Of a DNA stretch of 39,861 bases, positions 3,358 to 32,108 are shown piece after piece. The stretch lies in contig CALUWU010000039.1 of the NCBI GenBank assembly GCA_944324555.1, forward strand, positions 1 to 39,861, in the 5' to 3' direction. Position numbers and translations under genes: made by a program. The notes beneath the pieces were generated by a model. The model was not told where the DNA came from. It searched no databases and saw only the letters and a list, made by a program, of their open reading frames with translations. Within the stretch, counting starts at the first letter, position 1, and every line of letters starts with the position of its first letter. This DNA is from an uncultured Desulfovibrio sp. GTDB lineage: Bacteria; Desulfobacterota; Desulfovibrionia; Desulfovibrionales; Desulfovibrionaceae.

Positions 3358-3447
3358 TGCGTCCTGTCCCGCCGCCTCGCGTTTCAGCTTTTTCAAGGAT
3401 GAAACGTTCTGGAGCGCTCTGGAACCAGGGGGCGACGCCCTGTTTGA

Positions 3448-6559: not shown

Positions 6560-8511
6560 GCGTCGCCTCCGGCGGGCGGCGCGTCGTCCGCGGGCGCCTT
6601 CATTTCCGCAAGAAAGCGGCGCAGGGTCGCATAGCCCACATCCAGCGCGCGGGCCGCCTCGCGCCGGTTGCCGCCGCAGCGGCGCAGGGCGTCGCGCACC
6701 GCCTCGTCGCGGCAGCGGCGGAGCCGTTCGCGCAGCGACGGCGATTCGGCCGGCGCTTCCGGCCGGAGCGGCGCGACGGCAAGGGGCCGGCCGGGATACG
6801 GCAGCAGGCCGACGCGCTCGTGAAAGGCCTCCCGAAAGGCGTCCTCGTCCGGCGCGTCGTTTTCGAGAAGCTGGGCGTAAATGTCCATGACGGATCGCAG
6901 TTCGCGCACGTTGCCCGGCCAGTCGTAGTCGTCGAGGGCCGCGAGCATGGCCGGAGACAGACAGGCCGGCGTGCGGCCGTGTTCGGCCAGCACCGGCGCG
7001 ACCAGCAGGGGAATGTCCTCCTTGCGCTCGCGCAGGGGCGGCAGGGGAATGAACAGCCCCATGACGCGGTAATAGAGGTCCAGACGAAAGGAGCCGTCCT
7101 GAACGCGGGCCGCCAGCCGGGCGTGGTTGGCCGCGCTCACAAGGCGCACGTCCACGGAAACAAGCCGGTCGCCGCCCACGCGCAGCAGTTCGCCGCTTTC
7201 CAGCACGCGCAGCAGGCGCATCTGCATGGCGGGGGGAATGCTGCATATTTCGTCCAGAAAGAGCGTGCCCCCGTGGGCCAGCTCGAACAGGCCGCTCTTG
7301 CCCTGGCGGCGCGCTCCGGTAAAGGCCCCCTCCTCATAGCCGAAAAGCTCGCTTTCCAGCAGGCTTTCCGGCAGGGCCGCGCAGTTGAGGGCCACAAAGG
7401 GCCGGTCGGCGCGCGGCCCGGCGGCGTGCAGGGCGTGCGCGACCAGCTCCTTGCCGGAGCCGGTTTCGCCGCTGATGCAGACCGGGGCGTGCATGCCCGC
7501 GTAGCGCGCGATGCGGCGGCGCGCCTCCCGCATGGCCGGCGACTGACCGAGAATCGCCGAGGCCTCGTGCCGGCTGGTGAAGCTGCGGCGGGCGAGCGTG
7601 TCGATCTTGCGGCTGAGGCTGCGGATGGACTGCACGTCCCGCAGAAAGATAACCACGCCCCGCCCCTCGGTCAGGTGAAAGGGAAAGGCGCTGACAAGCA
7701 GCCGGCGGCGGCGCAGCGTCAGCACGTCGTCCACGCGGGGCTTGCCTTCCGCCGTCAGCTCCTCCGTAAGCAGATCGGGCAGCAGCGGCCGCAGATCGTC
7801 CTGCCCTTCCACGCCGAGCAGGCGCAGGGCTTCGTCGTTGGCGTAGATGACGTCGCCGTCGAGGCGGGCGCAGACGATCCCCTCGCGGCTGAAGCGCATG
7901 AGCTGGCGCAGGTTTTCCGTATAGGTGCGTTCGCGCTGGCGCGCCTCCATGAGGTTGACGGCGCGGGTGATGGCCTGTTGAATACTGCTTGGCTGGGGCG
8001 CGTCGAGGATGGTCTGGCCGCCGAGGCGGCGCATGTAGCGCGCCGTGCCGCCCCCGCCCACGGCCATGTGCAGCCCGCGCGCATAGCAGCGTTCCAGCTG
8101 CCGTTCCAGTTCCTCGTGGTGGGCGTAGCGGATGGCGTGAATCCGCATCTGGGTGATCTTTTCCATGAAATCGAAATCGCGGGCCTCGTCGCGGTGCGCC
8201 GTCAGAATGACCTCGGAGGTATAGGCGCGGGCGCGCAGCAGGGCGCGCAGCAGATCAAAGTCCGTGCGTTCGATGAAGACGGTCTTCTGCGGATGATCGC
8301 GCTGCACGTCGTAGCGGAAGCCGCCGTGGCAGATCAGGATATCGTAACCGTTGCGGATGCAGCGCTCGGCGTCGCGCCGGGCCGTGTCGTAGGTTGTGAC
8401 GAAAACGTCGATATCCCAGCCGAGGGCGCGGGTTTCCCGGCGGACCTCGTCGGCCACGAAATCGGAATGGACAAGAACGGCAAAGCGGAAGGGGGGCGTG
8501 TCGGCGGGCAT
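6556..8511 (-). CDS. PrpR-type sigma-54-dependent transcriptional activator
   Basis: In this 651-residue protein, residues 8-170 resemble the PrpR N-terminal sensor domain. A PAS-like segment (about 195-295) follows, then an AAA+ domain with Walker A GETGSGKE (348-355), GAFTGA (395-400), Walker B GTLFLDE and the R-finger region. A Fis-like helix-turn-helix ends the protein (about 600-640, RRCGGNRREAARALDVGYAT). The intact GAFTGA loop means it can contact sigma-54. The chosen ATG has a poor ribosome site; an in-frame TTG ending at 8574 would add 21 residues. Its stop overlaps the start of the second activator gene, so both are probably one operon. It is divergent from a desulfhydrase-family gene that has its own -24/-12 promoter, the likely target. 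The effector is unknown; organosulfur sensing is inference. Confidence 0.88.
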   Translation of the reverse strand: MPADTPPFRFAVLVHSDFVADEVRRETRALGWDIDVFVTTYDTARRDAERCIRNGYDILICHGGFRYDVQRDHPQKTVFIERTDFDLLRALLRARAYTSEVILTAHRDEARDFDFMEKITQMRIHAIRYAHHEELERQLERCYARGLHMAVGGGGTARYMRRLGGQTILDAPQPSSIQQAITRAVNLMEARQRERTYTENLRQLMRFSREGIVCARLDGDVIYANDEALRLLGVEGQDDLRPLLPDLLTEELTAEGKPRVDDVLTLRRRRLLVSAFPFHLTEGRGVVIFLRDVQSIRSLSRKIDTLARRSFTSRHEASAILGQSPAMREARRRIARYAGMHAPVCISGETGSGKELVAHALHAAGPRADRPFVALNCAALPESLLESELFGYEEGAFTGARRQGKSGLFELAHGGTLFLDEICSIPPAMQMRLLRVLESGELLRVGGDRLVSVDVRLVSAANHARLAARVQDGSFRLDLYYRVMGLFIPLPPLRERKEDIPLLVAPVLAEHGRTPACLSPAMLAALDDYDWPGNVRELRSVMDIYAQLLENDAPDEDAFREAFHERVGLLPYPGRPLAVAPLRPEAPAESPSLRERLRRCRDEAVRDALRRCGGNRREAARALDVGYATLRRFLAEMKAPADDAPPAGGDA

Positions 8512-8753: not shown

Positions 8754-9803
8754 ATGACTCTTGTGGATCGCATCAGGGATGCGGCGGCGCGCGCGGCGCG
8801 CGTGCCGCTGGGCGTCTGGCCCACTCCCTTCATGCCCATGACAGGTCTGCGGCGGGCCCTGCTTGACGAGGGGGCGGACTGTCCCGCGCTCTGGATCAAG
8901 CGCGAGGATCTGACGCCGCTGGGCGCGGGCGGCAACAAGGTCCGCAAGCTGGAATACGTGCTGGCGCGGGCGCGGGCGCAGGGGGCCGACACCCTTCTCA
9001 ATACCGGAGAGGTGCAGTCCAATCAGGTCGTGCAGACCGCCGCGGCGGCGGCGCATGAGGGGCTGGCCTGCGAGCTCTTTCTCGGGCGCGCCGATCCTCC
9101 CTTTTCGGAAGACGATCAGGAAACGGGCAATATCCTTCTCTGCCGCATTCTCGGCGCGCGCGTGCATCTTTTGCCGCCGGGCGGCGACTGCGTCGCGGCC
9201 ATGCGCGCCCGCGCGGCGGAGCTTGAGGCGCGGGGGCGAAAGCCCTTTGTCATTCCGCGCGGCTCCTCCACGCCGGAAGGGGCGCTGGGGTCGCTGGCCT
9301 GCTTCTTCGAGCTTCTGGATCAGGCTGCGGCGCTGGGCTTTGTTCCAAATGCCGTCGCGGTTTCCGTGGGCAGCGCGGGCACGGCCGCGGGCTTTCTGGT
9401 CGGCGCGCAGGCCCTGGCCCTGGACGGCGGGCCGGAGGTGGCCGTCTGCGGTTTTGACAGCTTCGGCATGGATTATCCCGTCATGGCGCAGGATCGCGTC
9501 ATGGAGCATGCCGAGGCCTGCTGGCGCTTTCTGGATCTGCCGGGGTCCTGCACGGATCATCTTCTTCGCCTGTCCTGCGATTTCGTGGGGCCGGGGTATT
9601 CGCGCCCCTATCCCGGCATGATCGAGGCCGTGCGGCTGCTCGCGCGCACGGAAGGCGTGGTTCTCGATCCCAATTATACCGGCAAGGCCATGGCGGGCCT
9701 GCTGGACATGCTGCGGCGCGGCCTCTATCCCCCGCAGGGCAACGTGGTTTTCCTGCATACCGGCGGCCTGCCCGCCCTGTTTGCCATGCGGCGGCATTTT
9801 TAG
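8754..9803 (+). CDS. D-cysteine desulfhydrase / ACC deaminase family PLP enzyme
   Basis: This 349-residue fold-type II PLP protein has the signature GAGGNKVRKLEY, in which Lys62 should bind PLP. The GEVQSNQVVQTAAAAA segment and a C-terminal DPNYTGKAM segment are also typical of the family. D-cysteine desulfhydrases convert D-cysteine to pyruvate, ammonia and sulfide in the cytoplasm; relatives act on 1-aminocyclopropane-1-carboxylate or L-cysteate. The second of two close ATGs (8754) is chosen because GGAGG at 8742-8746 is spaced 7 bases from it. Divergent to the PrpR-type activator and behind a sigma-54 promoter, it is probably induced by its substrate. Desulfhydrase, sulfo-lyase (cysteate) and deaminase activities cannot be told apart from sequence alone. 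Confidence 0.88.
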   Translation: MTLVDRIRDAAARAARVPLGVWPTPFMPMTGLRRALLDEGADCPALWIKREDLTPLGAGGNKVRKLEYVLARARAQGADTLLNTGEVQSNQVVQTAAAAAHEGLACELFLGRADPPFSEDDQETGNILLCRILGARVHLLPPGGDCVAAMRARAAELEARGRKPFVIPRGSSTPEGALGSLACFFELLDQAAALGFVPNAVAVSVGSAGTAAGFLVGAQALALDGGPEVAVCGFDSFGMDYPVMAQDRVMEHAEACWRFLDLPGSCTDHLLRLSCDFVGPGYSRPYPGMIEAVRLLARTEGVVLDPNYTGKAMAGLLDMLRRGLYPPQGNVVFLHTGGLPALFAMRRHF

Positions 9804-9827
9804 GGGGTATTAACCTGAATTGAGCTT

Positions 9828-9882
9828 CTGGGGGGAAGGAAACCCCCTTGGCTAGCGCGCAAGGGGGTTTCCTTCCCCCCAG
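9828..9882. repeat. Dispersed palindromic repeat, copy B
   Basis: Arms CTGGGGGGAAGGAAACCCCC and complement enclose a TTGGCTAGCGCGCAA centre. It lies 25 bases after the desulfhydrase stop and could terminate that transcript. The following bases (CCATCCTTCCCCCAACGCG) recur, inverted, next to copy E at 31998-32022, so the repeat unit is longer than the palindrome. Confidence 0.8.
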
Positions 9883-10035
9883 GCCCCCCATCCTTCCCCC
9901 AACGCGCCTTTTCAAAGGGGACGCAGGGCAGCGGCAGGCGCCTTTCAAGGGGTATGTATGTCCGTATTTTCTATTTATTTGAAATAAATAGAAAATATTG
10001 ATGTTGACGGATCTGGAGCGTTTTGTCTTTGTTTT

Positions 10036-10094
10036 TTTGAGGGGGAAGAAATCTCTTTTGCCTGCGGCAAAAAGTGGTTCCTTCCCCCCTCAAA
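10036..10094. repeat. Dispersed palindromic repeat, copy C (degenerate)
   Basis: This is an imperfect member of the palindrome family. The outer TTTGAGGGGGAAG and CTTCCCCCCTCAAA arms pair well, but the inner stem has mismatches around CCTGCGG. Confidence 0.7.
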
Positions 10095-10099
10095 CGCGG

Positions 10100-10138
10100 A
10101 AAAGGCCGGGCATCCCGCTGGGGATGTCCGGCCTTTTT
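10100..10138. terminator. Rho-independent terminator (bidirectional)
   Basis: AAAGGCCGGGCATCCC pairs with GGGATGTCCGGCCTTTTT around GCTG. It has A-runs on one side and T-runs on the other, so it can act on either strand. Confidence 0.8.
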
Positions 10139-10196
10139 GGGGAATTTTCTCCCCGGAAGATCGCCTTGAGGGGAATATGCCTCAGGTCTCTTTAGA

Positions 10197-10225
10197 GCGT
10201 TTCACCTTTGAAAAAGGTGAAACGC
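10197..10225. repeat. Perfect inverted repeat (hairpin)
   Basis: GCGTTTCACCTTT and AAAGGTGAAACGC form a 13-bp perfect stem with a 3-base loop. It has no T-run, and its function is not evident. Confidence 0.55.
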
Positions 10226-10335
10226 GAGGCTGCGGCGCGCCGCCCGGCCAAAAGTGAGCGGAAAAACAGCGCTTTTTCCGCGAAACGACAGTCCGCATGG
10301 TTTGGAACGCGCCGCGTTTCAAATTGAAATTGCTC

Positions 10336-10552
10336 TAGGGTCAGGACTCATTATCAAGAGCTGTCTTCCTGCGGGATAACATGTAAAATAAAATATTCCT
10401 ATATATTACAATAATGCCCATCTTTACCTGTCAGCACATTATGCGCGGGTTTTGGGGAAGATGGGGGAGTTTGAGGGGGAAGAAACACCTTTTTGCCGCA
10501 AGCAAAAGGGGTTTCTTCCCCCTCAAGAAAGCCGTAATGAGTCCTGGCCTAA
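10336..10552. repeat. Inverted repeats flanking a small MITE-like segment
   Basis: The 12-mer CAGGACTCATTA near 10342 and its complement TAATGAGTCCTG at 10535 form inverted ends, with partly matching bases outside them. The segment of about 217 bp carries palindrome copy D and an AT-rich stretch and ends 12 bases before the metY stop. It may be a non-autonomous element or a decayed insertion. No transposase is visible. Confidence 0.4.
10471..10526. repeat. Dispersed palindromic repeat, copy D (candidate metY terminator)
   Basis: TTGAGGGGGAAGAAAC and its complement form a long stem around TTTTTGCCGCAAGCAAAA. It begins 38 bases downstream of the minus-strand metY stop. The flank GGGGAAGATGGGGGAG recurs inverted near 15732. 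Confidence 0.8.
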
Positions 10553-15117: not shown

Positions 15118-15218
15118 CTGTCCGCGCGGCCAGTCCTGTTAAAACAATTTCAGTATACGGCCTGTGTCGTTTCGCGGAAAAAACGCGGTTTTTCCGCATT
15201 CAAGCGCAAGGAATATTC

Positions 15219-15869: not shown

Positions 15870-16655
15870 TCAGAAAAGGAGCTGTCCGTTGTCGTGGTAG
15901 ATATCGAAACCGTCGGTACGGACGTTCCCCAGCAGGGAGAGTCCCGTCGCGCGGGCGAGGTCTATGGATGCGGCCATGGCGCGGGAAAGGGAGGCAAGGA
16001 TGGGAAAACCGGCTCTCAGTGCCTTGTGGACGATTTCCGAGGCGATGCGCCCGCTGGAAAGCACCATGAGTTCCCGGCGATCCAGTCCCCGGAGCAGGGC
16101 ATGGCCCACGAGCGTGTCGACGGCATTGTGGCGGCCTATGTCCATGCAGAAAAAGACAGGCCCCTCGCGGTTCAGAAGAAGCGCATTGTGACAGCCGCCC
16201 GTAAGGCGAAAGATTTCCGAATGGGCGTCCAGCGTTTCGGCGGCCGCCATGATGCGTTTCGCGTCCCAGGAAGGCCGGGCCGGGCGGGGGATGCGCGGCA
16301 GCGCGCGCTCCTGAATGGGCGCGTTCCAGCCCAGCGCCGAGGTAAGGGTAAGCGGCGCGGCGGCGGGGGCTGCCTTCAGGCGCACGAGCGCATCGCAGCG
16401 CCCTTCCCCCTGAGGGGATATGTCCAGAGCGGCAATATCCTCCGCCTCGCTGACGAGGCCGCAGGAAAAGAGAAAGCCGGTTACAAGTTCGGGCATATGC
16501 TCGCCGGAACAGGCCATGCGGACGAAGGGCGCGCCGTCAAGGCGTATGGTCAGGGTTGTTTCCGCGCAGGCGACAAAGGAACGCGGCTGCCGCCGCGCGC
16601 CGTCGTAGCGTTCGATGTCGTAGCGGCGCACGAGGCGCGATGCGGCGTCAGTCAT
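15870..16655 (-). CDS. fdhD: FdhD-like formate dehydrogenase accessory protein
   Basis: This 261-residue member of the FdhD family fits by its N-terminal RSFVACAETTLTIRLDG and MPELVTGFLFSCGLV segments, by IFRLTGGCHNALL, by the strong DIGRHNAVDTLVG motif, and by LSSGRIASEIVHKA. FdhD passes sulfur from a cysteine desulfurase to the molybdenum cofactor of formate dehydrogenase. The loop that carries the Cys-x-x-Cys pair in E. coli FdhD appears here as SALGWNAP (about 106-113) without cysteine. C155 in TGGCH might substitute, or the protein may have another role. Its start overlaps the end of the VOC-fold gene, so the two are co-transcribed. No formate dehydrogenase is in the window. Confidence 0.88.
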   Translation of the reverse strand: MTDAASRLVRRYDIERYDGARRQPRSFVACAETTLTIRLDGAPFVRMACSGEHMPELVTGFLFSCGLVSEAEDIAALDISPQGEGRCDALVRLKAAPAAAPLTLTSALGWNAPIQERALPRIPRPARPSWDAKRIMAAAETLDAHSEIFRLTGGCHNALLLNREGPVFFCMDIGRHNAVDTLVGHALLRGLDRRELMVLSSGRIASEIVHKALRAGFPILASLSRAMAASIDLARATGLSLLGNVRTDGFDIYHDNGQLLF

Positions 16656-17058
16656 TGGCGTCGTCCTGTCCGGGCGCGTCGCGCCGGGAAAATTCGATGA
16701 GTTCTATGGGGGCGCCGTTATGCTCGATCATGGCGACGCGCACGCCGTCGGAAGGGCTGGCAGGCGGCGTCAGAACGATAAAATCGCGCAGACGCAGCTC
16801 CCGCTCAAGGTCCTGCACCTCAAAGGCGACATGGGGAACCGTTTGCACGAGGGGGTGAACGGGGCTTCCCTTTTCAAAGCGCACCCACTCCACGCCGAAC
16901 GGGCTTGTTGAAAATCCGGCCGCATACATGCCAAGATGGGGAATATGGATTTCTCCGGGCATGCTTGTCGTGGTCGGAATGCCTGTATGATGATATTTCC
17001 AGTTCCAGCGAGCTATGCATTCCGGCGCTTCATGATCGAGTCTGACGGTATTTTTCAT
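16648..17058 (-). CDS. VOC/glyoxalase-fold protein
   Basis: This 136-residue protein has the two beta-alpha-beta-beta-beta modules of the vicinal-oxygen-chelate fold. Candidate metal ligands are H24 (HHTGIPT), H76 (VPHVAFEV) and E119 (APIELIEF). Reaction and substrate cannot be read from the sequence; relatives include glyoxalases, epimerases and dioxygenases. No clear ribosome site precedes the ATG. The 3' end overlaps fdhD by 8 bases. It is the last high-GC gene before the AT-rich island. Confidence 0.8.
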   Translation of the reverse strand: MKNTVRLDHEAPECIARWNWKYHHTGIPTTTSMPGEIHIPHLGMYAAGFSTSPFGVEWVRFEKGSPVHPLVQTVPHVAFEVQDLERELRLRDFIVLTPPASPSDGVRVAMIEHNGAPIELIEFSRRDAPGQDDAND

Positions 17059-17163
17059 GGCATGACAGGTCCCGCAACCGGAGCTATTCGGGTTGAGTCC
17101 TAGGGAGCGAATTTCTTTACCATATATATTTCGGTATGGAATAGAGATATCATAAATAGTTTT

Positions 17164-19896
17164 TTATCTAATCACTAGAGCTTTTCGCATGAGGCTAACA
17201 ACCTTAGGGCGAGCTCCCTTAGAGACTCCAAGATTTAGTCCTTGTCTGTACATTTCTGGGAAATAATATTCTCCATCCTCATTGAATATAAAACCGAATT
17301 CTTCTAAAGCTGCTATGTTTTGAATTTGTAGTTCTTCAAAATCTTTTTTTCTTAATGGTATAGATTTATTGCTGCTTTCTAGTTTATTTATACTTTCTGC
17401 CACTTCCTGCATTTCTTGCTTGATTTCTCTTATTTTTTCTTTTCCGCAGGGAGAAAGCGCTGTTTTAAGCATTTTTGGCATTATCAATCTATCTTTGAAA
17501 ACAATTCTTTCTTCACTTGCAGATTGTTTTGATATTTCATGTATGAATCGGACGATATCACGTGCCTGAATATGCCCTTTGAAGTCAGATAAGGCACTCA
17601 ATACCCAATTTACAGAATAGGCTTCTTTTGAGTTTGGAGTACCAAGTTTCAACCCCCAGAAAAATTCCAGAGCCGTACTCATGCTGTCAAAACTTGCGGC
17701 ATACCAAGATTGCATTGAGGAATTTTTACAGTATTTTTTTAGATCACTTGCAATGAGAATCCATCCTACGAGCCGTAGTGCCTCATTTTTGCTCCAGTCG
17801 AGTTCGTAGGACTTATATTTTGCAATAACCTGAGAAGAATTTTGTAAAATAGCTCTGCGGACAATGTCTTTACGAATGAAAATCAAAAATCCTATATTCT
17901 CATTGCTCCATTCATAAATATCAGAAATGAGCTCAACAAGAAGAATACGCAAAGGTGTGATGGGGATGTCGCGTGCAAGCCAAAGAGAGAATAAATCCTC
18001 CAATCCATCCATGAGAAATGTGATTTTTTGAGTTTGCTTTTCTAGCTTTTGTTTTAGCAACTGACGTAAATTATCAGTATTTGAAAACTGTATATTCAAA
18101 ATTTGTAATATATATCGATACCATTTTTCTCTCCATAAAGATTCATCGAGATCTTTTACATCAACAAATGCTTCTTTCAACATAAAAAGAGAGGAATCTT
18201 TTAATGATGTGTTGAAAACGCTTTGCAGAGATTCTGCGGAGAAATTTTTTAAATCTTTTTCTACTCTGCAATTTTCGCTCCAAGAAAGGGGGATAAGTTT
18301 TATGTTGTCGTTAATGTTTATAGATAATGTTGCACAAAATGTTTCCCAAGTTTTCATGGCAGCTAGTTGAAGATAGAAATACGTCTTCCCAGCCCCTTTT
18401 GCTCCAATGATAAGAGCATTGGGAACGCTGGTAGAAAAATTACTGGCAAGCTGTCTATAAGGTTCAATTTGTAGAAAACGTTTATTCCAGTCTGCCTGTT
18501 CATCGAAGACGCTTTGTTCTGCAAAAATAAGACGTTCTGTTTTGTCTCTCAATTTTTGAATATCTTGTTTGCGTATTTCATCTGTGAGACCAGAAATTTT
18601 TTTCTGAGGGGAGAAATCCTTCCAGAGTCTATTGCAAATATCTTGCACGGCCGTTGATTTTTCCAAAACAAACAATGCTTGATCCAACGTATCCAGTCCA
18701 AGCAGGTTTTGATCATAACTGCCTTGCAACAACCAAGAATCAGAGTCAATACTTTTATCATTTAGTAGTAGTGATTGCCAGATATCTATGAGTCGATTTG
18801 AAATCGTGTTCAATTTTATACTATTTATTTCATCAGGAGGAATAAAATTTATAGTGACTCTTGTATTATCTGAATATATATCGTTACTATTGTTATATTG
18901 TTTTAGCAAAGATGCCATTTTTGCAAGCTGTTGCAAAACATAGCATGTCCCTTCTATTGATTGCCGCGATGTCGTGGTAAAAAGCAGACGACGGACTCGA
19001 GGATCAAAAAATAAGGGACTTGCTAATTCGCTCATGCCGGCCCTGAGATCTACGAATATATGCTTTACATCAAGCTTTTTTCCTAGCTGTAGCAGAATAT
19101 CTCCCAGCAACCAAGGTTTTTTCGGATTGTGTGTCAGCTGCTCTGGACTTGCCGGAGGACGCATCATTTGCTCTGTATCACGAAAGACTGGCAAGAAAAA
19201 AACAGAATATTGAGAATTACCGAGCTCAAGCCGAAGCGTTTGTATTTTGTTTGCCGCATATTCAATTATATCTCTTTGCTCATCAGCATCAGAAGCGTCT
19301 GCTAGTAAGTCAAGATATGAATATTGAGGGTCAGGAAATCTTTCTTGTGCCCACCATGTTAATCCTGGAGCCTCTGTATCTGCATCAATCAGCAATATTT
19401 GAGGCTTTGCAAAAGACGATTTTATTTGTTCTGCAAAGTATCTTGCCGCCGCAAGAGTATGCATAGTACGTCCAACCCCGCCTTTATATGAAAAAAAAGC
19501 GTGTAGAAGAGGGGCTTTACGGTTCTTTATTATGTCAGTAAATTGGGTTAATAGTCTATCTTTACAAGAATCTTCATTTAGTAAGGCAATATCTTCCAAT
19601 AGTGGACGGAATGGATAAAGTTCTAGAGATGAGTCTTTTTCCGGTTCTTCAAAGAGCACATCCAATCTCTTAGTGTCAAGATTAATAACGTATTTTGTAT
19701 CCTCTTTAATAAATTTGTGGCCTAAATTTTCTCTAAAAAAATAAATAGCTCTCTCGTGCTCTTCTTTTGTTCCTTCTACATATACAACATCATGAAGAAC
19801 AGTTATTTTTCCAAAACCTTCTGCTTTATTTGCAAGTCGATGTTGTAGGATGAAGTCTCGCAGATCATGATAGTTTTGAATCTCTCTTCTATTCAT
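17164..19896 (-). CDS. Large dual P-loop ATPase (ParA/MinD-like plus STAND/KAP-like), candidate defence protein
   Basis: This 910-residue protein has two distinct nucleotide-binding domains. After an N-terminal region of about 125 residues, residues 138-144 read KGGVGRT, the deviant Walker A of SIMIBI (ParA/MinD) ATPases. LLIDADTEAPG at 168-178 and FVDLRAGMSE at 281-290 follow. A second, classical Walker A (GAKGAGKT) is at 498-505, with FLMDGLEDLF (Walker B, D630) and a segment rich in W/L as in STAND or Sll1717-like P-loop proteins. The C-terminus could be a winged helix. The overall architecture is not one I recognise by name. The AT-rich setting and the adjacent HEPN-like gene (4 bases upstream) suggest a phage-defence or conflict system. 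Function is unproven. Confidence 0.85.
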   Translation of the reverse strand: MNRREIQNYHDLRDFILQHRLANKAEGFGKITVLHDVVYVEGTKEEHERAIYFFRENLGHKFIKEDTKYVINLDTKRLDVLFEEPEKDSSLELYPFRPLLEDIALLNEDSCKDRLLTQFTDIIKNRKAPLLHAFFSYKGGVGRTMHTLAAARYFAEQIKSSFAKPQILLIDADTEAPGLTWWAQERFPDPQYSYLDLLADASDADEQRDIIEYAANKIQTLRLELGNSQYSVFFLPVFRDTEQMMRPPASPEQLTHNPKKPWLLGDILLQLGKKLDVKHIFVDLRAGMSELASPLFFDPRVRRLLFTTTSRQSIEGTCYVLQQLAKMASLLKQYNNSNDIYSDNTRVTINFIPPDEINSIKLNTISNRLIDIWQSLLLNDKSIDSDSWLLQGSYDQNLLGLDTLDQALFVLEKSTAVQDICNRLWKDFSPQKKISGLTDEIRKQDIQKLRDKTERLIFAEQSVFDEQADWNKRFLQIEPYRQLASNFSTSVPNALIIGAKGAGKTYFYLQLAAMKTWETFCATLSININDNIKLIPLSWSENCRVEKDLKNFSAESLQSVFNTSLKDSSLFMLKEAFVDVKDLDESLWREKWYRYILQILNIQFSNTDNLRQLLKQKLEKQTQKITFLMDGLEDLFSLWLARDIPITPLRILLVELISDIYEWSNENIGFLIFIRKDIVRRAILQNSSQVIAKYKSYELDWSKNEALRLVGWILIASDLKKYCKNSSMQSWYAASFDSMSTALEFFWGLKLGTPNSKEAYSVNWVLSALSDFKGHIQARDIVRFIHEISKQSASEERIVFKDRLIMPKMLKTALSPCGKEKIREIKQEMQEVAESINKLESSNKSIPLRKKDFEELQIQNIAALEEFGFIFNEDGEYYFPEMYRQGLNLGVSKGARPKVVSLMRKALVIR

Positions 19897-19900
19897 ATCG

Positions 19901-20293
19901 CTACTTCCTTGCTAGCTCTATTAAAATATCGTCATGTGCTGCTGATATTTTATTTTTAAATTTTTCCAATTCACACGCTTTTATTTTGACTCCATATCGT
20001 AAAACTGTGTGTATTTTGTCTATCGGTATACAAGTTAGTGAGTCATTGACATTTATTATGTTTGGTATTTTAAGAGGGAAATTACATTCTGCAGCTAACT
20101 TGTTGATATTGTGTGTTTTGTATGATTCTTTGAAGGGTTTATTGTTTCTAATAAGTAGAGCCTTTAGTCCGCATTCTACGCCATAAAATAAATCCATAGC
20201 TATGTATCTATTTATTTCAGAATTTTTGATGTGAAGCTTTATTTCTTGAGCTGCATTTTTAAGTTCTTTAAAGTTTGGAATTATATCAGTCAT
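19901..20293 (-). CDS. HEPN-like small helical protein, partner of the dual ATPase
   Basis: This 130-residue protein looks helical. Residues 25-75 (a YxAMDLFYGVECGLKALLI helix followed by THNINKLA) resemble the HEPN fold: a long helix with a KALL segment and then an H-x-L/I-x-x-L helix. The catalytic R-x4-6-H motif of HEPN ribonucleases is not seen; the nearest is R49 with H61, twelve residues apart. It could be a non-catalytic sensor or adaptor, or a diverged RNase. GAGGT precedes the ATG, and the ATPase gene starts 4 bases after its stop, so they are one operon. Fold assignment by eye is moderate. Confidence 0.7.
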   Translation of the reverse strand: MTDIIPNFKELKNAAQEIKLHIKNSEINRYIAMDLFYGVECGLKALLIRNNKPFKESYKTHNINKLAAECNFPLKIPNIINVNDSLTCIPIDKIHTVLRYGVKIKACELEKFKNKISAAHDDILIELARK

Positions 20294-20647
20294 GACATTA
20301 CCTCATTTTTTTTTTTAATATCTGCTATGAAAAATAAAGTCAAGAAATTTGATTTTGTGTCTATCTTAATGGGGATGGTGTTTTGTGCCAAGATATGTAA
20401 ATAAGGGAAGGGATGGCTTTTTATAAGTGTATATTTTGTTTTACGTAGGTAAAAATAATGTTTATATAATTTAATGTGAAAAAAATTGATATGTCGAAAT
20501 TATTTAAAATGACAGCTGGTTAGGAAGTTTAAACTTTTTTCAAAGAAATTGTATATTCAATTTTATTCCCTTTATATTGATTTGTTATGAAAGTGTAGAT
20601 AGGGGAGCTTGTTTTTTATATATAAACAAAATTATTATAATATTTAG
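20294..20647. other. AT-rich gene-free region upstream of the HEPN-like operon
   Basis: There is no coding frame of useful length on either strand. It contains a poly-T tract just upstream of the HEPN-like gene and many TATA-like stretches, so it probably carries the operon promoter. No specific site can be chosen with confidence. Confidence 0.5.
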
Positions 20648-20717
20648 GGTTGTTTTTAAAATTTGGACATCATAAGCTAGTAGGGATGTTTTCATTAGTG
20701 AGGATGAGGAAGAGGTA

Positions 20718-20799
20718 GACTAACAAGCAAAATCCATGCTGGCGTTGACGTTCTTGGAAAACCTTTGCGTCAAAACCGCATGAATTTTGCTTGTCAGTC
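20718..20799. repeat. Long stem-loop inside the IS remnant
   Basis: The 22-base arm 20718-20739 matches the complement of 20778-20799 at 20 of 22 positions. The loop contains a second stem (TTGACG with CGTCAA). This structure is not part of a usual transposase gene and may be a nested small element. Confidence 0.6.
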
Positions 20800-20809
20800 C
20801 GCCCCTTTT

Positions 20810-21091
20810 TCGCCAGTAGCGTGTTAATGCATCCGATAAAGTCGCATCAATGATGAGGGCATTCCGTCCGCTTTTATGGACAGCATGCGCAAGATATCAT
20901 CCCAGACTTCGAGTCTTGTTCATTCGATAAAACGTTTATGGACAGTATTCCATGGCCAGAATTCCGCAGGTAAATCCTTTGAACATAAGATGATTATCTT
21001 TGTGCTTCCGCCCTCTGGTTTCAGTCTTTTTCTTTTCCAGCATAGGACAGATGATCATCCACTTTTCATCTGAAATGTCATGTTTGCTCAT
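20810..21091 (-). pseudogene. IS5-family transposase fragment
   Basis: On the minus strand the frame opens MSKHDISDEKWMIICPML and continues with a K-rich RGRKHKDN segment. In a shifted frame it then gives WPWNTVHKRFIE, a stop codon and TRLEVWDDILRML. These match the N-terminal half of IS5/IS427-group transposases. At least one frameshift and one in-frame stop are present and the catalytic DDE part is missing, so the gene is dead. Confidence 0.8.
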
Positions 21092-21145
21092 GTCAAACAT
21101 GGAAAGCAGGAGTCATCTGAGATGTCCAGCTTTTTTAGAAACAGC

Positions 21146-22045
21146 CTAGACGGCTTTCCACTGCTTGCCGGACTGGGCGGCAAGAATATTAATCAGGTCC
21201 TGCGTTCCGTTTTTGCCGCGGCCCTGCGCAATGGCCATGCGGTAAACTTCCTCGGCGCGTTCCGTGCCGGGCAGGACAAGGCCCATGTGGCGGCATTCCT
21301 CAAGGCAAAGCCCAAGATCCTTGACAAAGTGCTCGATGAAGAAACCGGGCGCGTAATCGCCCTTGAGCACGCGCCGGCCGAGGGTGTTCATGGCCGTGCT
21401 GCCCGCGGCGCCGGCGACAACAAGCTCAAGCCAGGCGCTTTTGTCCAGACCGGCTTCCTGAGCGAAAAGCAGGGATTCGCACACGCTGAACATGACGCCG
21501 GCAATGGCGATCTGGTTGGCGAGCTTTGCCTGCTGGCCGGTTCCCGCGCCGCCGCAGTGCAGGATTTTCTTGCCCATGCATTCGAAGCAGGGGAGAACGC
21601 GCTGGAAGGCGGCTTGTTCGCCGCCGACGAAAATGGAGAGGGTCGCGTTTTGCGCGCCGATGTCGCCGCCGGTGACCGGGGCGTCAAGGGCGGCGCAGCC
21701 GGCCGCGGCGGCCGCCTCGGCGATGCGCCGGGCCAGCGTCGGGCTGGACGTGGTCATGTCGCAGAAGACGCCCCCCCGGGCGAGACCGCGCAGCGCGCCG
21801 TTTTCGCCGATGGAGACGGCTTCCACGTCGGCGGGATAGCCCACGATGCTGAAAACGACGTCGGACTGTTCGGCGACGGCCCGGGGCGTGTCGGCCCATT
21901 GCGCGCCCTTGTCCAGCAGCGGCGCGGCCTTGCTTTTTGTCCTGTTGTAGACCGTAAGGGGGTAGCCCGCCTCTTGCAGGTGCGAAGCCATGGAAAGACC
22001 CATGACGCCGGTGCCGATCCAGCCGATGCGAAGGGATGCGGTCAT
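21146..22045 (-). CDS. NAD(P)-dependent 3-hydroxyisobutyrate dehydrogenase / tartronate-semialdehyde reductase family
   Basis: This 299-residue beta-hydroxyacid dehydrogenase has the N-terminal Rossmann motif GWIGTGVMGLSMASHL, a FCDMTTSSP segment and the substrate-binding DAPVTGGDIGA. The lysine in QQAKLANQ at about 170 is the catalytic lysine of the family. It should reduce or oxidise a small 2- or 3-hydroxyacid semialdehyde in the cytoplasm. AGGAGT is 8 bases before the ATG. Its stop codon lies exactly at the end of the IS remnant. Substrate cannot be decided; sulfolactaldehyde reductases belong to the same family and would suit an organosulfur degrader, but nothing here proves that. Confidence 0.88.
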   Translation of the reverse strand: MTASLRIGWIGTGVMGLSMASHLQEAGYPLTVYNRTKSKAAPLLDKGAQWADTPRAVAEQSDVVFSIVGYPADVEAVSIGENGALRGLARGGVFCDMTTSSPTLARRIAEAAAAAGCAALDAPVTGGDIGAQNATLSIFVGGEQAAFQRVLPCFECMGKKILHCGGAGTGQQAKLANQIAIAGVMFSVCESLLFAQEAGLDKSAWLELVVAGAAGSTAMNTLGRRVLKGDYAPGFFIEHFVKDLGLCLEECRHMGLVLPGTERAEEVYRMAIAQGRGKNGTQDLINILAAQSGKQWKAV

Positions 22046-31983: not shown

Positions 31984-32027
31984 GTGTCTTCCTCTTGAAA
32001 AAGCGCGTTGGGGGAAGGATGGGTGGC

Positions 32028-32083
32028 CCGGGGGGAAGGAAACACCCCTTGCGCGCCAGCCAAGGGGTTTTCCTTCCCCCCGG
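32028..32083. repeat. Dispersed palindromic repeat, copy E (between srfB-like and srfC-like genes)
   Basis: CCGGGGGGAAGGAAAAC-type arms and complement enclose a TTGCGCGCCAGCCAA centre. The flank GTTGGGGGAAGGATGGG (32007-32023) matches the inverted flank of copy B. Its place inside the operon could reduce read-through into the GTPase gene. Confidence 0.8.
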
Positions 32084-32108
32084 AAAAACGAGTTGGCGTT
32101 GACACGCC

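Follow-up and report, generated by a model that had tools for sequence, protein, structure and literature searches.

Loci that encode a HEPN-like protein (A), an ATPase with a KGGVGR motif (B) and an AAA+ ATPase (C) are catalogued in PADLOC-DB as PDC-M28. The relevant part of PMC12988326 describes PADLOC PDCs as unpublished, putative candidates derived from guilt-by-embedding, and as unvalidated. NCBI holds families for the two ATPases: NF047398 (KGGVGR-motif variant AAA ATPase) and NF047389 (P-loop ATPase, Sll1717 family). In the passages that concern MAE_18760, Anantharaman et al. 2013 report pairs of HEPN proteins and ParA/Soj-like ATPases, and propose a toxin/antitoxin role. No paper on KGGVGR, PDC-M28 or Sll1717 was found in a collection of openly licensed PMC papers, which has subscription papers and bioRxiv outside it. 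DefensePredictor (PMC13092281) includes HEPN systems, and ParA does not appear in the relevant portion of its main text. Here, we describe a two-gene operon of an uncultured Desulfovibrio sp. that encodes a 130-residue HEPN-fold protein, P0002, and a 910-residue protein, P0001, where B and C are fused. The operon lies in a window of 39,861 nucleotides, which is the whole stretch of contig CALUWU010000039.1 that was analysed. We conclude that the operon is mobile, and represents a divergent, fused form of an anti-phage candidate that has been catalogued but, apparently, not validated. It is probably a mobile anti-phage module related to PDC-M28, with a two-ATPase regulator that gates a HEPN RNase effector.

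The fused operon and its fit to known families

Coordinates of all features are in Table 1. The two genes are separated by 4 bases, as the first-pass annotation had noted, and both are on the minus strand. That annotation also read P0001 as a ParA/MinD-like and a STAND/KAP-like ATPase in one chain, and this domain reading holds. The N-terminal half passes NF047398, with 142.4 bits against a cut-off of 90. The C-terminal half resembles NF047389 at 53.3 bits, below the cut-off of 75; matches to this family that exceed the cut-off are in frames of 720 residues or fewer. There was no sequence relative of P0001 in the PDB. Both of the P-loops picked out earlier, KGGVGRT and GAKGAGKT, were recovered when 18 fused proteins, including that of the window, were aligned. 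Here, K138, G139, G140, G142 and R143 are invariant, as are G498, K500, G501, G503 and K504 (18/18). Since both P-loops fall in conserved columns, they are not chance occurrences. Position 143 is R or H in all 14 aligned B sequences, again with the window included. For residues 1-81, the predicted local distance difference test score (pLDDT) is ~51-62 per block of ten. No fold was recognised for the N-terminal region, and the VIA matches of the large model hardly test residues 1-126.

The smaller protein, P0002, was modelled using AlphaFold2 (pLDDT 83.4). The best PDB matches of the model are mostly HEPN entries. Of the first 19 rows in the VIA list, 9 have titles that mention HEPN, and a further 4 are entries for toxin-antitoxin systems. 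Hence, the predicted structure supports a four-helix HEPN fold, and bears out the HEPN-like partner proposed from sequence. Sequence rows for pseudoazurin in the PDB, at E 0.37 or more, were taken as chance; no others were found. The model also points to a candidate alternative active site, consisting of E40xxxK44, H61 and R99-Y100. Note that E40, H61, R99 and Y100 are invariant in 29 of 29 aligned homologues. HEPN proteins of the AbiV type have a conserved His in the insert between helices 2 and 3, plus a conserved basic residue (PMC3710099). P0002 has both, as H61 and R99, in positions taken from the predicted model. We infer an AbiV-type alternative HEPN active site, with putative nuclease activity. 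P0002 does not match HEPN_AbiV itself (PF18728), and one relative, L085, scores 25.8 bits against the cut-off of 27.1. AbiV differs from the protein described here in another respect. The 2013 table, as far as it bears on AbiV, gives no operon partner, whereas the window HEPN travels with two ATPases. Similarly, MAE_18760 systems resemble the window operon in placing a HEPN beside a ParA-like ATPase. They differ in that the HEPN family is marked with Rx4-6H and, in the relevant passages of Anantharaman et al. 2013, an AAA+ ATPase is not mentioned.

The first-pass annotation considered this a candidate new system, with an architecture that it could not name. That claim fell: the same parts, usually unfused, are PDC-M28, NCBI has NF047398, and fused relatives occur in several phyla. 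By domain content, the window operon appears to share three components with PDC-M28, in the same order: a HEPN-like A, a KGGVGR ATPase B and an AAA+ ATPase C. HEPN is followed by fused B-C, and relatives have this order too. The differences are that B and C form one chain in the window, that the sequences are far from the PADLOC models, and that the C domain sits on a separate starred branch of its tree. P0001 matches PDC-M28B (E 1.4e-11), and has an E of 7.9e-16 with a model built on 17 unfused B sequences. P0002 matches PDC-M28A across residues 28-61 only (E 0.0048). For PDC-M28C, P0001 was not listed at E up to 1, and the relative L232 had no match at 1e-4. A second relative, L233, matches PDC-M28C (E 4.8e-7), while its HEPN has no PDC-M28A match at 1e-4. 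Two further C models differ in outcome. One made exclusively from unfused sequences misses P0001 but finds L172 (1.1e-5) and L092 (1.3e-4), which belong to the same clade as the window, and one derived from 14 other fused proteins recovers the C-half of P0001 (E 6.3e-16). The link to PDC-M28 is via the B part and intermediates, and by present models the window copy would not count as a complete PDC-M28. Judged by profiles, it is at the edge of PDC-M28.

Relatives and their defence setting

The cut-off of NF047398 is exceeded in 13 of 297 genomes from the same class. The open frame is 428-472 residues in 11 of these, and long only in the window (915) and G088 (982). In these loci the HEPN gene comes first, then the KGGVGR gene and the AAA+ gene. 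In L085, the three genes are PADLOC PDC-M28A, B and C (E 1.2e-46, 2.9e-152 and 3.3e-171). By sequence, most relatives in the class have separate B and C genes, in the three-gene operon listed as PDC-M28. Matches to P0001 occur in 6 of 199 family genomes, own included, and G194 has the C half alone. They also occur in 9 of 395 phylum genomes, own included, and extend near the whole length in two: G545 (locus L232, 40%) and G374 (locus L233, 31%). A HEPN gene with the same motif is just upstream in G374.

More distant relatives were gathered with an alignment of the B domain. This was needed; searches with the single P0001 sequence found nothing in genome contigs or viral contigs, and tblastn found nothing in plasmids and phages. 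Among the best 80 of 270 genome loci, 14 have B and C in one frame (with a partial C in L117), 7 have them separate, and 59 have B without a C match. The equivalent figures for 23 viral loci are 4, 10 and 9. Counting L088 and the window, there are at least 20 fused loci, and those with a HEPN partner are found in several phyla. A HEPN gene is upstream in 19 of 20; the exception, L180, ends at a contig end. Apart from the window's own, these HEPNs were detected by profile in 13 cases (E 1e-3 or better, with several matches weak at E 1e-6 to 3e-4, and that of L088 a member of the profile) and by eye in 5 (L109, L128, L133, L150 and L172). There are at least 27 unfused loci, including those in class genomes and with L179 and L181 near-copies. 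A profile detects HEPN in 26, of which 7 are members of the profile, and in the other, L074, the HEPN frame has an in-frame stop. Other broken relatives are L084, where the HEPN frame stops early, and L232, where the HEPN reading is split across two frames.

Copies occur on both plasmids and viral contigs. The AAA+ half from viral contig L175 matched 20 plasmid records and no phage record. The fused gene of Kosakonia, L121, matched 27 plasmid records, one across the whole length, and had no E. coli match at the DNA level. On plasmids, a tyrosine recombinase gene adjoins the operon in Pantoea (fused), and in Enterobacter and Paraburkholderia (both unfused). In a Burkholderia glumae plasmid stretch, a transposase takes its place.

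The C-domain tree has 48 rows: 19 fused, 27 unfused and 2 lone. The window, L089, L172 and L092 form one starred clade (100/100). A further starred clade contains 25 of the 27 unfused rows, together with one lone C. The fused label changes twice on the tree, compared to 15.2 times in shuffles. The tree has long branches (L133, L094, L081 and L191), many rows with an odd letter make-up and, potentially, a false join affecting the clade of the window. Because of the long branches, the possible false join, and because the tree is unrooted, we claim no order for the fused and unfused forms. Separately, L089, from the same bacterial family, has a solitary C gene at 9046-10485 with its own start. 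Its product is 38% identical to the C half of the window protein and, in that 20-kb stretch, tblastn found no B or A (best E 1.4). In the 59 of 80 genome loci (L092-L171) that have B without a C match, the KGGVGR domain is often N-terminal in other proteins. This suggests a module reused in several systems. Further AT-rich two-gene blocks are near the operon in L087 (12655-14729) and L079 (2002-3890); the pair in L087 has no PADLOC match at 1e-8.

The relatives have a well-supported defence setting. In L172, a viral contig and member of the window's clade, HEPN and fused B-C genes are between portal and replication nickase (gpA function) genes, according to PHROGs. Portal, terminase, capsid and scaffold genes are on one side, and the nickase is on the other. 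This gene set suggests a P2-like contig. The pertinent section of Rousset et al. 2022 (PMC9122126) describes a hotspot in P2 where antiviral systems lie between gpA and gpQ, the portal gene. Hence, the clade-mate L172 is probably located in the defence hotspot of P2 prophages. Another fused relative, L234, is more distant, and lies directly behind a type I restriction-modification system. The order is HsdR, HsdM, HsdS, a HEPN frame (by eye), fused B-C, and an ATPase that scores as NsnB, AriA and GajA-like. The fused protein matches PDC-M28B (3e-29) and PDC-M28C (2.1e-11), and is 24% identical to P0001 over residues 117-513.

We also scanned the neighbours of 12 related loci (L073-L078, L081 and L084-L088; L079 was left out). 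At 1e-10, 62 PADLOC families matched in 115 open reading frames (ORFs), compared to 6 families in 131 control ORFs, where the scan counts families rather than distinct ORFs. Of 138 control ORFs, 7 long ones were left out, which biases towards fewer control matches, and the control region L207 (1984 bp) contributed no ORF. Among the matches listed (25 of 62) are NsnA, NsnB, AriA, PD-T4-2, HEC-03B, PDC-S31, PDC-M55A, mad3 and methyltransferases. This enrichment is weak support for defence.

The insertion and its surroundings

The sharp drop in guanine and cytosine (GC) content noted previously was evident, with values of 0.32-0.38 per kb across 17001-21000, versus 0.64 (16001-17000) and 0.62 (21001-22000). 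At third codon positions, GC is 0.25 and 0.29 in the two insert genes, versus 0.64-0.81 in four neighbouring genes. While the AT-rich island is present as described, its extent was underestimated; three empty sites show a longer foreign segment. To identify these, 79 genomes of the genus were searched with the left flank. Besides the window's own, 14 genomes matched, 3 closely (78-79% DNA identity), and each of the 3 has the right flank on the same contig. In L224 and L225, BLASTN matches to the flanks end at 17077 and 21147, with ~44 bp between. In L223, the flanks end at 17064 and 21156, ~66 bp apart. Since three genomes of the genus carry the flanks only 44-66 bp apart, the AT-rich block is an insertion of ~4.07 kb. 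In L224 (~7966-8012) and L223 (~6953-7000) the empty site has a GC-rich hairpin followed by T-rich sequence, which is terminator-like by eye. This hairpin was not seen at the insert edges in the window.

Table 1. Positions of the insert, its genes and their parts in the window
Feature	Position	Strand	Basis
Whole inserted segment	17078..21146 (4069 bp)	none	BLASTN of window against three same-genus genomes
910-residue fused two-ATPase protein P0001 (B-C fusion)	17164..19896	-	profile searches, alignment, model
N-terminal alpha-beta region, residues 1-81	19654..19896	-	secondary structure of low-confidence model part
KGGVGR-type ParA/MinD-fold ATPase domain, residues 127-411	18664..19518	-	
Deviant Walker A KGGVGRT, residues 138-144, P-loop Lys to Arg	19465..19485	-	
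ORC/Cdc6-like AAA+ ATPase domain, STAND-like, residues 443-890	17227..18570	-	
Canonical Walker A GAKGAGKT, residues 498-505	18382..18405	-	
130-residue HEPN-fold protein P0002 (A component), probable effector	19901..20293	-	predicted fold, conserved residues
AT-rich stretch upstream of operon, inside insert	20294..20935	none	promoter-like sites not above shuffles
54-residue open frame	20936..21100	-	translation; no NCBIfam family at 1e-5

Upstream of the operon, the insert has 15 promoter-like sites, compared to 13.9 in shuffles. The 54-residue frame beyond presumably corresponds to the start of an IS5-type transposase, and has no NCBIfam match; 20700-21145 is single-copy in the window's genome. 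We found no tRNA, no Rfam family above its gathering score, and no direct or inverted repeat that convincingly marks the ends of the insert. The border genes are what we take to be a VOC-like gene, without NCBIfam match, and a 2-hydroxy-3-oxopropionate reductase-like gene. An NCBIfam scan of ten neighbouring frames detected hydrogenase subunits, a hydrogenase maturation protease, FdhD, a sulfhydrylase, the 2-hydroxy-3-oxopropionate reductase-like protein and one weak lipoprotein-type match; three had no family. Elsewhere in the window, 9825-10345 is an interspersed intergenic repeat, with many pieces of ~150 bp and 71 matches in its own genome (query included). Short pieces are near 16-64, 3364-3410, 15155-15197 and 31990-32094. 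Copies are at other spots in L223, L224 and L225, and the repeat has no Rfam family above the gathering score.

Proposed mechanism and competing explanations

There is good support for the component parts, for the insertion and for the association of relatives with defence, and the following mechanism is proposed from them. P0002 would be an RNase-type effector, using the AbiV-like alternative active site (Glu40, His61 and Arg99-Tyr100). In uninfected cells, it may be kept silent by, or bound to, P0001. The C-terminal ORC/STAND-like AAA+ half, with an intact Walker A, could be the ATP-dependent sensor and assembler. The ParA-fold half, with Arg or His replacing the P-loop lysine in every aligned member, could bind nucleotide with little turnover, or none, and serve as a switch or a dimer clamp. 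In the passages relevant here, Kaur et al. 2020 (PMC7159879) report that conflict systems dependent on nucleoside triphosphates include MinD/ParA-like domains for which inactivity was predicted. Hence, a switch role for the KGGVGR half would fit. A phage trigger would change the state of the ATPases, so that HEPN is freed or clustered. RNA would then be cut, and growth of the cell would stop before phage are made (abortive infection).

Several observations weigh against this account. For P0002, Foldseek of the model gave a best E of 0.038 (probability 1.00), with no PDB match below E 0.001, and no Pfam or NCBIfam HEPN model matches the sequence. The Rx4-6H motif of canonical HEPN RNases is absent, and the 29 homologues have no such conserved column. 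Models of A built from 17 unfused, or 11 other fused, HEPNs miss P0002, and the C model from unfused sequences only misses P0001. The structural model of P0001 is middling (pLDDT 66.7). With respect to gene neighbourhood, 68 other ORFs of the window match 7 PADLOC families at 1e-10, which all look generic; they comprise RtcR/PspF-type regulators (2 ORFs), RT-Protease, mad3 and mad8. No clear defence gene was found beside the window copy, either among ten neighbours (NCBIfam) or among these 68 ORFs (PADLOC). For the relatives, 9 of 10 neighbour ORFs checked singly had no PADLOC match at 1e-8. At the same threshold, one methyltransferase ORF of L081 alone matches 37 PADLOC families. Elsewhere, a single ATPase ORF in L234 matches 60. 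Because single ORFs match tens of families, the neighbour enrichment is weaker than its raw count, and few distinct ORFs may be involved. The defence reading of the first-pass annotation nevertheless holds, through the ties of L172 and L234 to defence loci. Neither outcome that it had set against itself, a match to a non-defence family or an absence of defence association, appeared; P0001 scores well under the cut-offs of partition families, and relatives are found at defence loci.

If the operon were instead a HEPN toxin and ATPase antitoxin, it would be an addiction module that retains a mobile element, rather than a phage sensor. We consider this unlikely. The proposal of Anantharaman et al. 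for MAE_18760, as worded in the passages cited above, and the copies on plasmids and viral contigs, are consistent with such a role. However, antitoxins are usually small, whereas the partner here is large and contains two ATPases. Furthermore, the clade-mate in the P2 hotspot, and the relative directly behind a type I restriction-modification system, argue for defence. Note that the two explanations overlap, because many addiction modules act in abortive infection. It is also improbable, and to a slightly greater degree, that the HEPN is an adaptor for nucleic acid or protein, with an ATPase or the alpha-beta N-terminus as the effector. The lack of Rx4-6H in P0002, and of an identified fold at the N-terminus of P0001, would agree with this. 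Conversely, 29 divergent homologues all share the Glu, His, Arg and Tyr, and these residues are placed where an alternative HEPN active site is expected.

A remnant of ParA-type plasmid or chromosome partition is very improbable. The ParA/MinD fold, weak matches of P0001 to CbiA (E 0.047) and ParA_partition (E 0.037), and a PHROGs match of the L172 protein to ParA-like partition (E 7.6e-9), all lean this way. However, the P0001 matches are far under curated cut-offs, and none of the aligned members retains the P-loop lysine. In addition, P0001 carries an AAA+ half and is accompanied by a HEPN gene, and the only other notable frame of the insert is the transposase-like one. With Arg at position 143, and 13.6 bits against the 180 needed for ParA_partition, we rejected a partition function.

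Returning to the anti-phage module, we regard it as doubtful, though less so than the alternatives above, that the operon is a separate defence class beyond a subtype of PDC-M28. Such a class would couple, in one polypeptide, a lysine-less ParA-fold switch to an ORC/STAND-type AAA+ sensor, and would gate a non-canonical Glu/His/Arg-Tyr HEPN RNase. The fused form argues for B and C acting as one unit. Spread over several phyla, and with a clade-mate in the P2 defence hotspot, the system lends itself well to testing, for which the putative HEPN active site of the alternative type offers exact residues. If our account is true, a two-ATPase control device would be added to HEPN-based immunity.

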